Positions 208 through 5,120 of a stretch of DNA of 34,073 bases are shown one piece after another; position 1 is the first letter of the stretch, and every line of letters begins with the position of its first letter. The stretch spans positions 1-34,073 of the forward strand of contig CASEIR010000072.1 in NCBI GenBank assembly GCA_949287925.1, written 5' to 3'. This stretch comes from an uncultured Lachnospiraceae bacterium (GTDB lineage Bacteria > Bacillota > Clostridia > Lachnospirales > Lachnospiraceae). The notes beneath the pieces were generated by a model. That model saw only the letters and a list, made by a program, of their open reading frames with translations, did not search any database and was not told the origin of the DNA. The position numbers and the translations under genes are program-made.

Positions 208-1446
208 TTACATGAACATATTTCCGGTTCCTACATAACGGATTCCATCTTCAAATACCCGTTTCCCGCCGAGGGTTACCAGTTTTACATCGTTCAGCCG
301 CGTGATGTCCTTGCTGAGGTCGCCTCCGACCACCAGAAGGTCTGCGTCCAGGCCTTCTTTTACCAGGCCTCTTTCATTCTCTACCCCAAGAACTTTTGCG
401 GGATTGGAGGTGGCTGTCTGGATGGCCTGTGCCGGTGTGATTCCATATTCCACCATGTACTGCAGCTCTCTTGGCAGCGGGAGTAGCGGCGACTGATACA
501 TGACCATATCAGTTCCGGCGATCACGGTCACTCCGGTGTCGTAGAATTCTTTGAAATGATCCCGGTATGCCTTGTAAGCCGGCTCAAAGTACTGATAGTC
601 TTTCATCTCTTTTTGCATTACCGGATCGTTCACCGGCTTGCCTGCATTCTTCTCCAGATTCTCTTTGCAGATATCATAGAGCAGCGTATAAGCCATAATG
701 GTAGGCGTCCAGGCAATGCCCTTCTCTGCCATCTGACGGGCGTGATCCACCGTCATGAAGGTGGCGTGTTCTATGGTGTCGAAGCCTGCGTCGATACACA
801 TCTGGATTCCGGGATTGGTTCCGGCATGCACGCCGCATTTAATCCCTCTTCTGTGGCACTCATCTACCGCAGCATTCAGCTCTTCCTGGGTCAGCTCCGG
901 AATGTGAGACCGGTGAGTCGTCAGCACTTTCACCCATTCTGCTCCATCCCGGACCTGCTTACGGATCTCTTTACGCACTTCCCATGGGCCGTCCACCTGC
1001 TCCACTTCCTCCCAGCCGTGACCGCCAGTCATACAGATTCCGGTATCTGTATGCGTAATTCTGGGAATGGTGATAAATCCTTTTTCTGCAGCCAGTTTCA
1101 GATTCTTGCAGACTCCGTGGGCAGAAGACATATCACGTACCGACGTGATTCCCCGTTCAAATGCCGCCTGTGCGTGCTGCAGGGCATACAGCATAATCAG
1201 CTGTGGTCCGTAATTGAAACTATCCGGCTGAGAATACCAGTATCCCAGATGGACATGCATGTCACAAAGTCCCGGAAGTAAAGTAGCTTCTCCGTAATCC
1301 TTCACTTCTTCCTCCGGATAAGCCTTCACAAGCTCCTCTTTGGCGGCGATTTTCTGAATCTTGCCGTCCGCTCCGGTTAACACGGCCTGATCTTCCAGTA
1401 CCGTTTTCCCGTCTCCTGTCATCAGATATTTTGCACAAATAATCAT
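208..1446 (-). CDS. Metal-dependent amidohydrolase (imidazolonepropionase/prolidase-like)
   Basis: This is a 412-aa amidohydrolase-superfamily protein, probably cytoplasmic; no signal peptide is visible. Numbered from an ATG three codons upstream, the motifs are in order: the HxH pair in DMHVHLG near residues 67 and 69, a candidate carbamylated Lys in WVKVLTT (176), His in GVHAG (210), His in IEHAT (230), and the metal-binding Asp in AGTD (316). This set fits the binuclear-metal imidazolonepropionase/Xaa-Pro dipeptidase-like group. The substrate cannot be read from sequence. The ATG at 1446 is preferred because AAGGAG lies 9 nt upstream, whereas the ATG at 1455 abuts that site. The gene starts about 20 nt after the leuA-araC stop and is probably co-transcribed with it. 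Confidence 0.85.
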   Translation of the reverse strand: MIICAKYLMTGDGKTVLEDQAVLTGADGKIQKIAAKEELVKAYPEEEVKDYGEATLLPGLCDMHVHLGYWYSQPDSFNYGPQLIMLYALQHAQAAFERGITSVRDMSSAHGVCKNLKLAAEKGFITIPRITHTDTGICMTGGHGWEEVEQVDGPWEVRKEIRKQVRDGAEWVKVLTTHRSHIPELTQEELNAAVDECHRRGIKCGVHAGTNPGIQMCIDAGFDTIEHATFMTVDHARQMAEKGIAWTPTIMAYTLLYDICKENLEKNAGKPVNDPVMQKEMKDYQYFEPAYKAYRDHFKEFYDTGVTVIAGTDMVMYQSPLLPLPRELQYMVEYGITPAQAIQTATSNPAKVLGVENERGLVKEGLDADLLVVGGDLSKDITRLNDVKLVTLGGKRVFEDGIRYVGTGNMFM

Positions 1447-1466
1447 GCTTTTCATCTCCTTCGTAT

Positions 1467-3455
1467 CTATTTTTGATTCCGGAACTGCATCGGAGTCATC
1501 TGGTAAGCCTTTTTAAACAGACGATTGAAATGCTCTACATTCTGGTACCCCACCGTCAGCGCAATGTTCTCCACCGTCATATTACTGCTCTTCAGAAGTG
1601 CTTTTGCCTTCTTCATGCGGATCTTCTTCACCAGCTCCCCGAAGGTCATTCCGGATTTTTCTTTAATATACTTGGAAATATAAGGTTTGGAGAGATAAAA
1701 TTTCTCTGCCAGGTCATCCAGGGTGATGTCAATGTAGTTTGCCTGGATATAATTCATGATCTCTAACATCCGCTCATCTTTACAGGCCTGGGCGCTGCCG
1801 ATCTCTTCGATCTTGTTGACTGCCACGATCAACGCCTCGATGGACGCTTTGATAATATCCGCGTCGATGCCCACGCCCCAGAAGGTCTTTCCCTTACAGA
1901 TTACGCCCACATAGGCAACCGCCTTGGAAGAAGATCCCTTGGTCAGAGAGTGTTCCTCATAGAAACTAAGCTCGTAGCTGATATTAAAATACTGCTTAAT
2001 GGCGTTGCTGACCGCGTCCAGACGGCCATTACCGATAGCGGTGATCACCCGGCTCTCTCCGCCGTGATTAATGGTGGCTTCCGCTGTTATACCATCAATC
2101 TGTTTGAAATGACACTCATCAATATGGAAGACCGGCTTAGTGTTAATATAGTTATCTGAGAAAATCTGATATACCCATTCCGGCGTCAGCTCCTTATGAG
2201 CCTTATCCGACACGTCTTTGACCAGATAACCTACTTCTTCTCTCATCTTTTGAGGCAGATTAATGCCGTGGCTCTGCTTCAGGATGTAATTTACGCCGCC
2301 CTTTCCGGACTGACTGTTGATCCGGATCACATCCGAGTCGTATTTTCTTCCCACGTCCTGAGGATCAATGGGCAGATAAGGAACCGTCCAGGTATCGCAC
2401 TGTTTTTCCTCTCTCCAGGCCATCCCTTTTGCAATGGCGTCCTGATGAGAACCGGAAAATGCGGTAAATACCAGATCTCCGGCATATGGCTGGCGCTCGT
2501 AGACGTGCATTCTGGTCAGCCGTTCATAAGTCTCACGAATGTGTTTCATGTCGGAAAAATCCAGTCCCGGATCCACACCGTGGGAATACATATTCATGCC
2601 CATGGTCACGATGTCCACGTTACCGGTACGTTCTCCATTTCCAAACAGTGTTCCCTCGATACGGTCTGCTCCTGCAAGAATTCCCAATTCCGCCGTTGCC
2701 ACGCCGCAGCCTCTATCGTTATGCGGGTGCAGACAGAGAATCACGTTGTCACGGTATTTCAGATGTTTATTCACATACTCCAGCTGGCAGGCGAATACAT
2801 GAGGCATCGCATTTTCTACCGTGGTCGGAATATTAATGATCGCTTTATTATCCGCAGTTGGTTTCCATACATCCAACACAGCGTTACATACTTCCACAGC
2901 ATAATCAACTTCCGTTCCCGGGAAACTTTCTGGGCTGTACTGGAAAGTAAAATTACCGTCTGTCTCCGACGCCAGCTTCAGCAGAAGTTCCGCGCCATCG
3001 ATGGCGATTTTCTTAATCTCCTCCTTATCCTTGCGGAATACCTGTTCACGCTGGGCCACCGAAGTGGAATTATAAAGATGGATCACTGCATGAGGCGCTC
3101 CCTTTACCGCTTCAAAGGTCTTCTTGATGATGTGCTCTCTTGCCTGGGTCAACACCTGTACCGTCACATCATCAGGAATCATATTCTTCTCAATCAGTGT
3201 ACGCATAAACTGGTATTCTGTCTCGGACGCCGCCGGGAATCCCACCTCAATCTCTTTAAATCCAATGTCCACCAGCATCTGGAAGAATTCCAGTTTCTCT
3301 TCCAGGCTCATAGGCTCGATCAAAGCCTGGTTCCCGTCTCTTAAATCCACACTGCACCAGATGGGCGGGCGGTCGATATATTCTTTCTTTACCCAGTCAT
3401 ATGTAATCTCCGGGGGCATAAAATAAGCCCTCTCATATTTCTGACAATTTTTCAC
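1467..3455 (-). CDS. leuA: 2-isopropylmalate synthase fused to C-terminal AraC-family DNA-binding domain
   Basis: This 662-aa protein carries a complete LeuA of the long, yeast-type form. DLRDGNQ (37-43) opens the catalytic barrel, HPHNDRGCG (243-251) supplies the zinc-binding HxH, GNGERTGN (272-279) follows, and residues about 440-552 form the LeuA allosteric domain (IGNGRLDAVSNA at 474-485). It condenses acetyl-CoA with 2-oxoisovalerate, the first committed step of leucine synthesis. The usual enzyme would end near residue 555. Here about 104 more residues (559-662) form a two-helix-turn-helix AraC domain: LAEKFYLSKPYISKYIKE is the first HTH, and IALTVGYQNVEHFNRLFKK plus TPMQFR is the second with the AraC signature. 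There is no stop or frameshift at the junction. The start is GTG with AGAGAGG 8 nt upstream. No leuBCD gene is nearby. The enzyme call is firm; a DNA-binding role is inferred. Confidence 0.93.
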   Translation of the reverse strand: MKNCQKYERAYFMPPEITYDWVKKEYIDRPPIWCSVDLRDGNQALIEPMSLEEKLEFFQMLVDIGFKEIEVGFPAASETEYQFMRTLIEKNMIPDDVTVQVLTQAREHIIKKTFEAVKGAPHAVIHLYNSTSVAQREQVFRKDKEEIKKIAIDGAELLLKLASETDGNFTFQYSPESFPGTEVDYAVEVCNAVLDVWKPTADNKAIINIPTTVENAMPHVFACQLEYVNKHLKYRDNVILCLHPHNDRGCGVATAELGILAGADRIEGTLFGNGERTGNVDIVTMGMNMYSHGVDPGLDFSDMKHIRETYERLTRMHVYERQPYAGDLVFTAFSGSHQDAIAKGMAWREEKQCDTWTVPYLPIDPQDVGRKYDSDVIRINSQSGKGGVNYILKQSHGINLPQKMREEVGYLVKDVSDKAHKELTPEWVYQIFSDNYINTKPVFHIDECHFKQIDGITAEATINHGGESRVITAIGNGRLDAVSNAIKQYFNISYELSFYEEHSLTKGSSSKAVAYVGVICKGKTFWGVGIDADIIKASIEALIVAVNKIEEIGSAQACKDERMLEIMNYIQANYIDITLDDLAEKFYLSKPYISKYIKEKSGMTFGELVKKIRMKKAKALLKSSNMTVENIALTVGYQNVEHFNRLFKKAYQMTPMQFRNQK
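1470..1781 (-). other. AraC-type HTH domain appended to LeuA
   Basis: This is the coding segment for residues 559-662 of the LeuA fusion. It holds both helix-turn-helix units of an AraC domain (I-A-x-x-V-G-Y ... F-N-R-L-F-K-K ... P-M-Q-F-R). It is complete at the C terminus, and the codons join the enzyme in frame. Confidence 0.88.
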
Positions 3456-3516
3456 GTTTGTTACCTCTCTTTCTATGACACCGTCGAGTAATAATCATCA
3501 ACTTTATTGTCTTATT

Positions 3517-3545
3517 TTAATACTTTCTTATCCTAACACATACAA
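3517..3545 (-). promoter_or_regulatory. Candidate sigma-A promoter of leuA-araC
   Basis: On the minus strand TTGTAT (3540-3545) and TATTAA (3517-3522) are separated by 17 nt, predicting a start near 3510 and a leader of about 55 nt. That is too short for a T-box attenuator. The -10 is weak. ATAAGA-like direct repeats (3526-3531, 3510-3515, 3502-3507) lie in and just downstream of it. Confidence 0.4.
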
Positions 3546-3548
3546 TCG

Positions 3549-3580
3549 AAAAAGGAAAGTGATGTTTTTAATCACTTTCC
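3549..3580 (-). terminator. Terminator of the sodium:solute symporter gene
   Basis: A 10-bp perfect stem (3554-3563 with 3571-3580, 7-nt loop) is followed on the minus strand by TTTTTCG. It lies just after the symporter stop at 3591 and just before the leuA promoter, separating the two units. Confidence 0.85.
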
Positions 3581-3590
3581 TTGATGTATT

Positions 3591-5120
3591 TTAATTTGCC
3601 TCCAGCGAACGCTTCTTAGTAATCGTAACCTTCTCTTCATAGCATGCAAAGATTCCATCCACCTTATCTCTGGAAAGCTTCGGAGTCAGAACACTGACTG
3701 CCGGAACCACGATCAGTCCGGCTACCATAGCAATGGCTCCTGCATTGATGGGAGATTCGATATACTTCAGAAACATATTAGAAACCGTAATTCCCACACC
3801 TGTGATAAAGCTAGCCCACACCGATGCGGTTGTGGTGCCTTTCCAATAAAGACCGTACAGCAGCGGCGCCAGGAATGCCCCTGCCAGCGCGCCCCAGGAG
3901 ATTCCCATCAATTGGGCAATGAATGTGGGCGGATCCAGCGCAATGATCACAGATATGGCAATAAAGAATACGATCAGAGCCTGCATGATCCGTACCAGCT
4001 TCTTATCTTCTACCTTTTTCAGGACATTATCTTTCAGAAAATCCAGCGTCAGTGTGGAACTAGAGGTCAGCACCAGGGACGCCAATGTAGACATGGAAGC
4101 CGACAGCACCAGAACGACGACGATACCAATCAGAATGTCCGACAGCGACGACAGCATGTGGGGGACGATACTGTCATAAACAACCGCTCCGTCTTCACCA
4201 TAGATTGCTGGATCGTCAAACAATCTGCCAAAACCGCCAAGGAAATAACATCCGCCGGAAATCACTACCGCGAACAAGGTTGAAATTACCGTACCGGTAT
4301 TGATGGATTTTTCATCCTTGATAGCATAGAATTTACCTACCATCTGAGGAAGTCCCCAGGTACCCAGAGATGTGAGGATTACAACCCCCAGCAGATTCAA
4401 CGGATCCGGTCCGAAGAACGAAGTAAAAGCTCCCGGCTGTCCCATGGTCACCGGTACGTCACTTGGAATCTCGGCCATCTTCCGAACAGCTTCCAGAAAT
4501 CCACCCTGCCCGGACAGTACCGCTCCGATAACCGCAATGATTCCGATCAGCATAATGATCCCCTGAATGAAATCATTGATCGCCGTTGCCATATAACCGC
4601 CCAGAATCACATATACTCCGGTAAATACCGCCATGGCAATTACACAATAATGATACGGTACATGAAACGCCATTTCAAACAGTCTGGACAGACCATTATA
4701 TATAGAAGCCGTATAAGGCACCAGAAAGATAAATACGATGGCTGAAGCTGCGATCTTCAGCGGCTTGCTTCCAAACCGGGCGCCAAAGAAATCCGGCATG
4801 GTCCTGGAATTCAGATGCTGGCTCATTACCTTCGTGCGGCGGCCCAGTACTACCCAGGCCATCAGACTCCCGATGATGGCATTTCCCAAACCGATCCAGG
4901 TACTTGCGATCCCATATTTCCAGCCAAACTGTCCTGCATAGCCCACAAACACTACTGCGGAAAAATAGGAGGTCCCGTATGCAAAAGCTGTCAGCCATGG
5001 TCCCACAGACCGGCCGCCAAGCACAAAGCCATCCACACTCATGGCGTGTCTTCTGCTATAAATACCTACAGCGATCATCACCAGGAAAAATGCAACCAGT
5101 AATATCAGCTTAATCATCAT
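3591..5120 (-). CDS. Sodium:solute symporter (SSS family)
   Basis: This 509-aa integral membrane protein has about 13 hydrophobic segments and no cleavable signal. The N-terminal region has the SSS layout: first helix, then SVDGFVLGGRSVGPWLTAFAYG with the small-residue-rich first core helix and a Ser/Thr/Gly-rich unwound stretch (TSYFSAVVFVGYAG). GWKYG, GGYMATAINDFIQG and the Ser-rich LVLSASMSTLASLVLTSSS stretch resemble the PutP/PanF group, where the latter contributes to the Na2 site. It would import an organic solute, perhaps an amino acid or carboxylate, with sodium; the substrate is not deducible. GAGG precedes the first ATG by 9 nt. The gene is monocistronic, with its own near-consensus promoter and terminator. 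Palindromic repeats in the leader suggest a dedicated repressor. Confidence 0.9.
   Translation of the reverse strand: MMIKLILLVAFFLVMIAVGIYSRRHAMSVDGFVLGGRSVGPWLTAFAYGTSYFSAVVFVGYAGQFGWKYGIASTWIGLGNAIIGSLMAWVVLGRRTKVMSQHLNSRTMPDFFGARFGSKPLKIAASAIVFIFLVPYTASIYNGLSRLFEMAFHVPYHYCVIAMAVFTGVYVILGGYMATAINDFIQGIIMLIGIIAVIGAVLSGQGGFLEAVRKMAEIPSDVPVTMGQPGAFTSFFGPDPLNLLGVVILTSLGTWGLPQMVGKFYAIKDEKSINTGTVISTLFAVVISGGCYFLGGFGRLFDDPAIYGEDGAVVYDSIVPHMLSSLSDILIGIVVVLVLSASMSTLASLVLTSSSTLTLDFLKDNVLKKVEDKKLVRIMQALIVFFIAISVIIALDPPTFIAQLMGISWGALAGAFLAPLLYGLYWKGTTTASVWASFITGVGITVSNMFLKYIESPINAGAIAMVAGLIVVPAVSVLTPKLSRDKVDGIFACYEEKVTITKKRSLEAN

Follow-up and report, generated by a model that had tools for sequence, protein, structure and literature searches.

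LeuA-AraC, a leucine-pathway enzyme fused to an AraC-type DNA-binding domain in Lachnospiraceae, and a candidate operator at its own promoter

Related systems and the architecture of the fusion protein

Trigger enzymes, i.e. metabolic enzymes that also act on DNA, are a known kind of regulator. As described in PMC8249747, which cites Commichau and Stulke 2008 on the subject, they include BirA, NadR, PepA, PutA and PyrH of E. coli, of which PutA has a single target, its own locus. Control of leuA by a T-box is likewise known, a T-box upstream of this gene having been reported (PMC2494555), and leucine binds the regulatory domain of LeuA and inhibits the enzyme (PMC10464499).

The LeuA-AraC protein described here is a variant of the trigger enzymes, in that an enzyme is joined to a DNA-binding domain and binding is predicted. 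It differs from them as the biosynthetic enzyme of a committed step with a C-terminal AraC-type domain of two helix-turn-helix motifs (HTHs), and because it probably activates, the end product being the presumed signal. It shares the complete C-terminal two-HTH domain with the AraC/XylS regulators, but in place of the usual sensor stands a whole enzyme that brings a leucine-binding domain of its own. With the leucine T-box leaders it has in common the gene, leuA, and the presumed purpose; whereas the RNA senses uncharged tRNA, the protein presumably senses leucine itself. Compared to LeuA as such (PRK03739; solved structures 1sr9 and 3fig), the full catalytic and allosteric architecture is present and an AraC domain of about 100 residues is added. 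No paper on the fusion was found in a search of the open-access literature.

The gene lies in a stretch of 34,073 nucleotides from an uncultured Lachnospiraceae bacterium, which as a whole is called the window below. A reading made from the sequence alone had described a complete LeuA in frame with a complete two-HTH AraC domain, which is borne out by the open reading frame, Pfam and NCBIfam:

1467-3455, minus strand: leuA-araC fusion gene, 662 amino acids, open reading frame with a GTG start
2532-3362, minus strand: HMGL-like catalytic barrel, residues 32-308 (Pfam, 8.1e-71, above cut-off)
2277-2477, minus strand: IPMS_D2 post-catalytic domain, residues 327-393 (Pfam, 4.5e-34, above cut-off)
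1809-2192, minus strand: LeuA_dimer allosteric domain, residues 422-549 (Pfam, 7.4e-26, above cut-off)
1473-1772, minus strand: AraC-type DNA-binding domain with two HTHs, residues 562-661 (Pfam)

The NCBIfam model PRK03739 (LeuA) matches residues 5-548 with 808.8 bits against a cut-off of 455; for TIGR00970 (leuA_yeast) the fusion protein stays under the cut-off (668.7 vs 697.4). In the AraC-type part two Pfam matches are above cut-off, HTH_18 at residues 582-661 (2.6e-21, the profile being complete, 1-80 of 80) and HTH_AraC at residues 621-660 (5.4e-14). Ahead of the HTHs Pfam finds LeuA domains only, i.e. no dedicated non-enzymatic sensor or dimerisation domain. Residues R39, D40, H243, H245 and E275, which we take to be the catalytic residues, are invariant in 36 fused proteins, 40 near unfused orthologues and 43 distant LeuA proteins. 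The allosteric-domain motifs EHxxxxGxxxxAxAYV and WGVGIxxxIxxASxxAxxxAVN are common to the fusion and the solved LeuA proteins 1sr9 and 3fig, and the best solved matches of the HTH region are the AraC-type domains of response regulators (6swi and 3lsg). The AlphaFold model of the fusion protein has a mean pLDDT of 67.5 and is poor at residues 320-440 (23 sequences in the alignment); the HTH region, residues 561-660, has block means of 78-87 and seven helices. No second full LeuA was found in the window's genome (G000), a draft that is 83.6% complete and 6.4% contaminated.

Spread, conservation and history of the fusion

In 150 Lachnospiraceae genomes, one per genus and with the window's own included, a LeuA match was found in 135 and a full-length LeuA-AraC fusion in 34. 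An order-wide draw of 246 genomes, 141 with a LeuA match, gave 13 full-length fusions, all in Lachnospiraceae; none of the 109 LeuA-matching genomes from the order's other families has it. Within the window's genus it is present in three of three genomes, the other two genes being 95% identical to that of the window, and isolates of the genus carry the same gene at this identity. A random or recent fusion is ruled out by the full-length architecture in 34 of the 150 family genomes. The sequence-only reading had proposed to look for LeuA homologues with an HTH across the family, and had named a degenerate or truncated HTH as the outcome that would speak against it; the 34 genomes answer the former, and as to the latter, the HTH aligns over its full length in all 36 fused proteins of the first set.

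The loci were compared in two sets. The family set holds 78 near orthologues (77 fetched plus the window), 38 of them fused or frame-split and 40 unfused, and 43 distant LeuA; 22 of the 135 LeuA-matching genomes were left out, all with at most 51% identity except for a 127-residue fragment in G149 at 63%. The named loci are the best 80 of at least 576 relatives and therefore lean to close kin. They were reduced to 78, as L232 has no LeuA hit and L229 only 47 nt upstream, and some are the same records as genomes of the family set (e.g. L190 and G002). Within these best 80 of at least 576 relatives, fused loci occur in Merdimonas, Dorea, Faecalicatena, Mediterraneibacter, Claveliimonas, Coprococcus comes, Hespellia and others, and the species with named isolates include Coprococcus comes, Faecalicatena contorta, Mediterraneibacter massiliensis and Merdimonas faecis.

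The conservation along the protein was expressed as the mean frequency of the top residue. In the 36 fused proteins it is 0.743 for the HTH, 0.739 for the allosteric domain, 0.87 for the barrel and 0.444 for the linker, and the allosteric domain is better conserved than in the unfused near orthologues (0.621). The dN/dS ratios of 32 disjoint close pairs (HTH 0.010, barrel 0.016, allosteric domain 0.022) are rough because dS is saturated. The linker between LeuA_dimer and HTH has an identical length in 110 of 115 proteins, and only one enzyme position separates fused from near unfused proteins (at least 80% on both sides).

At two loci, L075 (G063) and L079 (G080), the HTH is intact and readable but out of the LeuA frame; the junction in G080 has a run of eight A's shortly ahead of the LeuA stop. 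A programmed frameshift, gene fission or an assembly error may be the cause, and the three are indistinguishable. Both frame-split loci retain the operator described below. We also note that G011, G016, G024, G110 and G146 have, besides the fused leuA, a second, distant unfused leuA (about 50% identity) without the operator.

In a quickly built LeuA tree, with support by SH-aLRT only, all 38 fused or split genes are in one clade of 44 (SH-aLRT 95). Four of the six unfused members of this clade have a T-box and two have neither T-box nor operator; L077, an unfused gene with a T-box, sits within the fused genes on starred branches. The topology would fit one gain and then several joint losses of HTH and operator. 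The change counts on the tree are 5 for the fusion and 15 for the T-box, and an independent-pairs test of fusion against T-box gave a median p of 0.5 with three well-supported pairs, which are too few for significance.

Operator, promoter and T-box upstream of leuA

The fused genes share an upstream element, TTAAAANANATCAANNNNANTGATTAAA with a conserved tail, that makes up two direct half-sites. The window has the following features:

3558-3594, minus strand: operator O1, direct half-sites TTAAAnnnnATCA and TTAAAnnnATCA, 22-23 bp apart (sequence motif)
3530-3540, minus strand: extended -10 promoter TGTGTTAGGAT without a recognisable -35 (spacing and column conservation)
3491-3520, minus strand: O2, an operator-like copy that overlaps the assumed transcription start, 74 bp away from O1 (motif match)

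The operator was scored as the number of mismatches over 21 positions, and the motif was discovered in and counted on overlapping locus sets. At most five mismatches are found at 36 of the 38 fused or split near orthologues vs none of the 40 unfused. Six mismatches occur at two fused loci, both with the full extended -10 in place, and at four unfused ones, none with one. If both elements are considered jointly (operator with at most six mismatches and an extended -10 matching 7 of 8), the counts are 35/38 and 0/40. With the two locus sets taken together, the operator is within 350 nt, with at most six mismatches, in 107 of 114 fused upstreams. In the remaining seven it is farther up: five times above a T-box, with 0, 1, 0, 2 and (L067) 6 mismatches, and twice, in L197 and L202, above an intervening reading frame, with a perfect operator at about -1040. 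By eye, the reading frame in the approximately 1 kb between operator and leuA at L197 and L202 appears hydrolase-like; it may form a two-gene operon with leuA under the same operator. These are also the two exceptions in the named loci (the best 80 of at least 576 relatives), where 76 of 78 have an operator with at most five mismatches within 700 nt. Markov shuffles reached four mismatches once in 1140 and never fewer, and the score of 83 unfused upstreams was never below six.

The distance from the operator start to the -10 is 59 bp in 97 of the 100 loci with a recognised -10; seven more loci are without one. A thinned alignment of 34 upstreams shows conservation of the extended -10, TRTGnTAnnAT, but of no -35 hexamer. 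This alignment was chosen on the operator core and the TA of the -10, so that the core and TA columns are inflated, while the O1 tail, the TRTG and the final AT were unselected. Relative to a start assumed 7 nt below the -10, O1 extends from about -75 to -36. As far as can be read from the sequence, this is a direct-repeat operator near the -35, as in the AraC/XylS regulators; the half-sites end beside the -35 position, presumably as at araI of AraC. A second match at an offset of 72-76 from O1 is seen in 93 of 110 loci, but in only 20 of 36 after thinning of similar sequences. In the window, O1 overlaps the final four bases of the upstream symporter reading frame as well as a terminator-like 12-pair stem followed by T's (3552-3594), so the same stretch may serve both as the terminator of one transcript and as the control site of the one that follows.

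The T-box was called by its motif, with at most two mismatches within 700 nt, and occurs in 33 of the 40 unfused vs 5 of the 38 fused or split near orthologues. Most of these T-boxes have, by eye, the leucine specifier GAACTC or GAACTG. Rfam, run on 13 of the 78 loci, confirmed the T-box in all five fused loci and in L076, L078 and L081, gave 89 bits vs a gathering score of 93 for L077, and found no T-box at L080, L082, L075 and L079. At the fused loci L056, L057, L062, L067 and L069 both elements are present one after the other, first the operator and then, nearer to leuA, the T-box; such loci may be surviving intermediates in the exchange of one regulator for the other. The exchange has exceptions, since 7 of the 40 unfused orthologues have neither element. 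The T-box motif was found in none of 79 named loci, again from the best 80 of at least 576 relatives. For distant leuA it was reached in 2 of 43 fetched loci, and G013, which was not fetched, has a T-box just upstream.

No T-box was found in the window at the gathering score, and Rfam over 3300-3800 with E≤1 gave a single match, to a snoRNA family far under cut-off; with no match at cut-off, a T-box or other known RNA in the leader was rejected. A leucine-rich leader peptide was also rejected, as no run of leucine codons is seen by eye in the 67-nt leader. An earlier estimate of about 55 nt for this leader has to be corrected to about 67 nt (with the start assumed), but the conclusion that it is too short for a T-box stands. 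The related claim that the leucine attenuator is absent is right for the window and not for all relatives, five fused loci keeping a T-box below the operator. T-boxes have not been lost from G000 altogether, as nine matches (E≤0.001) lie at other places in this genome.

Other targets were sought with the 21-position pattern in 24 fused or split and 6 unfused genomes, with at most three mismatches. All 17 matches with at most one mismatch in the 30 genomes are at leuA-araC. A site at leuA on the right strand is within three mismatches in 23 of the 24 fused or split genomes, G100 having four, and in G000 O1 is the only match in the genome within three mismatches. Away from leuA, the fused or split genomes have 15 hits (2-3 mismatches) vs 8 for the reversed pattern, and a small number of additional targets may thus exist; the six unfused genomes have 4 hits vs 0, all with three mismatches. 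A shorter, 17-position pattern has a perfect match elsewhere in the unfused G129, among the matches listed, and for this reason only the 21-position pattern is used as evidence. Judged by sequence, LeuA-AraC has its target site in its own pathway, as is typical of trigger enzymes, i.e. at its own promoter.

The upstreams of leuC (26 of 29 matches, fused or unfused, up to 1.4 kb) have a best operator score of six mismatches, and no T-box motif with fewer than three mismatches was found at the same 26 loci; in the draft G000 no leuC was found. A leuA-leuC operon was rejected, as leuC, in the 19 fused genomes with a match to it, is 288 kb or more away from leuA or on a different contig. AT-rich, palindrome-like stretches, e.g. 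ATAACTTAAAGTTATA, are visible by eye upstream of leuC in L270, L279 and L284 and are perhaps a LysR-type site. The gene next to leuA-araC in the window is:

208-1455, minus strand: amidohydrolase gene, 11 bp downstream of leuA-araC (open reading frame and Pfam)

It is possibly co-transcribed with leuA-araC. A homologue is downstream at only four other fused loci, L040, L041, L042 and L046, in the last one inverted.

Proposed regulation and its meaning

We consider it probable that LeuA-AraC is a single-target activator of its own gene that works when leucine is scarce and has largely replaced the leucine T-box. The parts of this proposal differ in strength. The sequences themselves show the fusion and how well it is conserved, the operator and its occurrence together with the HTH, the constant spacing to the promoter, the contrast in T-boxes and the loci with both elements. 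That LeuA-AraC binds its own promoter is strongly inferred, and activation appears likelier than repression. Leucine is inferred to be the signal because the allosteric domain is retained and the unfused orthologues carry a leucine T-box. The idea of the sequence-only reading, an enzyme that reports to DNA, is supported, as such an enzyme should be a conserved fusion whose own promoter has an operator dedicated to it, and this is the pattern seen.

In the proposed mechanism the LeuA dimer would bring two AraC domains to the half-sites of O1, which end at the -35 position, and leucine-free LeuA-AraC would activate the extended -10 promoter. When leucine fills the allosteric domain, which adjoins the HTH via a linker of near-constant length, activation would stop. 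In other words, a single binding of leucine would inhibit the enzyme and at the same time switch its synthesis off. At loci that have O2, this second site at the transcription start would probably add repression at a high protein level. LeuA-AraC would now fill the role that the leucine T-box had at the ancestral leuA. Since such a T-box switches its gene on when cells are starved of leucine, LeuA-AraC should activate under the same condition, and the position just upstream of the -35 is the usual place of activators, including those of the AraC type.

A fuller version is possible but somewhat doubtful. Here LeuA-AraC would be a two-operator homeostat, in which the leucine-free protein activates from O1 and the abundant protein represses from O2, the T-box having been displaced via intermediates with both elements in series.

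The same physiology with the opposite sign would result from an autorepressor, leucine-bound LeuA-AraC on O1 and O2 flanking the promoter and blocking the polymerase. The position of O2 over the assumed start in 93 of 110 loci suits a repressor, and an extended -10 promoter may not depend on an activator; both are points against activation. Nevertheless we regard the autorepressor as unlikely, since O1 is present at every fused locus examined and 16 of 36 divergent loci lack O2, and since O1 is upstream of the -35 position, where activators are usually found.

The signal could also be 2-ketoisovalerate, acetyl-CoA, the product or enzyme turnover rather than leucine, a reading that concerns the signal only and overlaps the others. 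Trigger enzymes such as PutA act as transcription factors without their substrate (PMC8249747), and the catalytic residues of LeuA-AraC are intact. We find this rather improbable, given that the unfused orthologues mostly have, at the same gene, a T-box whose specifier is by eye that of leucine, and that the HTH directly follows a leucine domain which is better conserved in the fused proteins (0.739 vs 0.621).

It is very unlikely that a separate AraC-type protein reads the operator and that the fused HTH is vestigial or structural: G000 does code for other AraC-type domains, but operator and fused HTH co-occur across the tree and the rate of change in the HTH is as low as in the catalytic barrel. 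Despite the 12-pair stem and T's in the window, we dismiss as hardly credible that the element is a mere terminator of the upstream gene and the HTH a passenger, as the element is kept at loci with other upstream genes and no G+C stem (by eye), lies at a constant spacing from the -10 and does not occur upstream of unfused orthologues.

If the proposal of a leucine-responsive activator is true, enzyme inhibition and gene control of one pathway are joined in a single leucine-binding event. LeuA-AraC, whose hosts are gut bacteria, could serve as a leucine biosensor. The loci also form a natural series, i.e. T-box only, both in series, operator only, and HTH and operator missing again, in which the replacement of an RNA switch by a protein regulator at one and the same gene can be studied.
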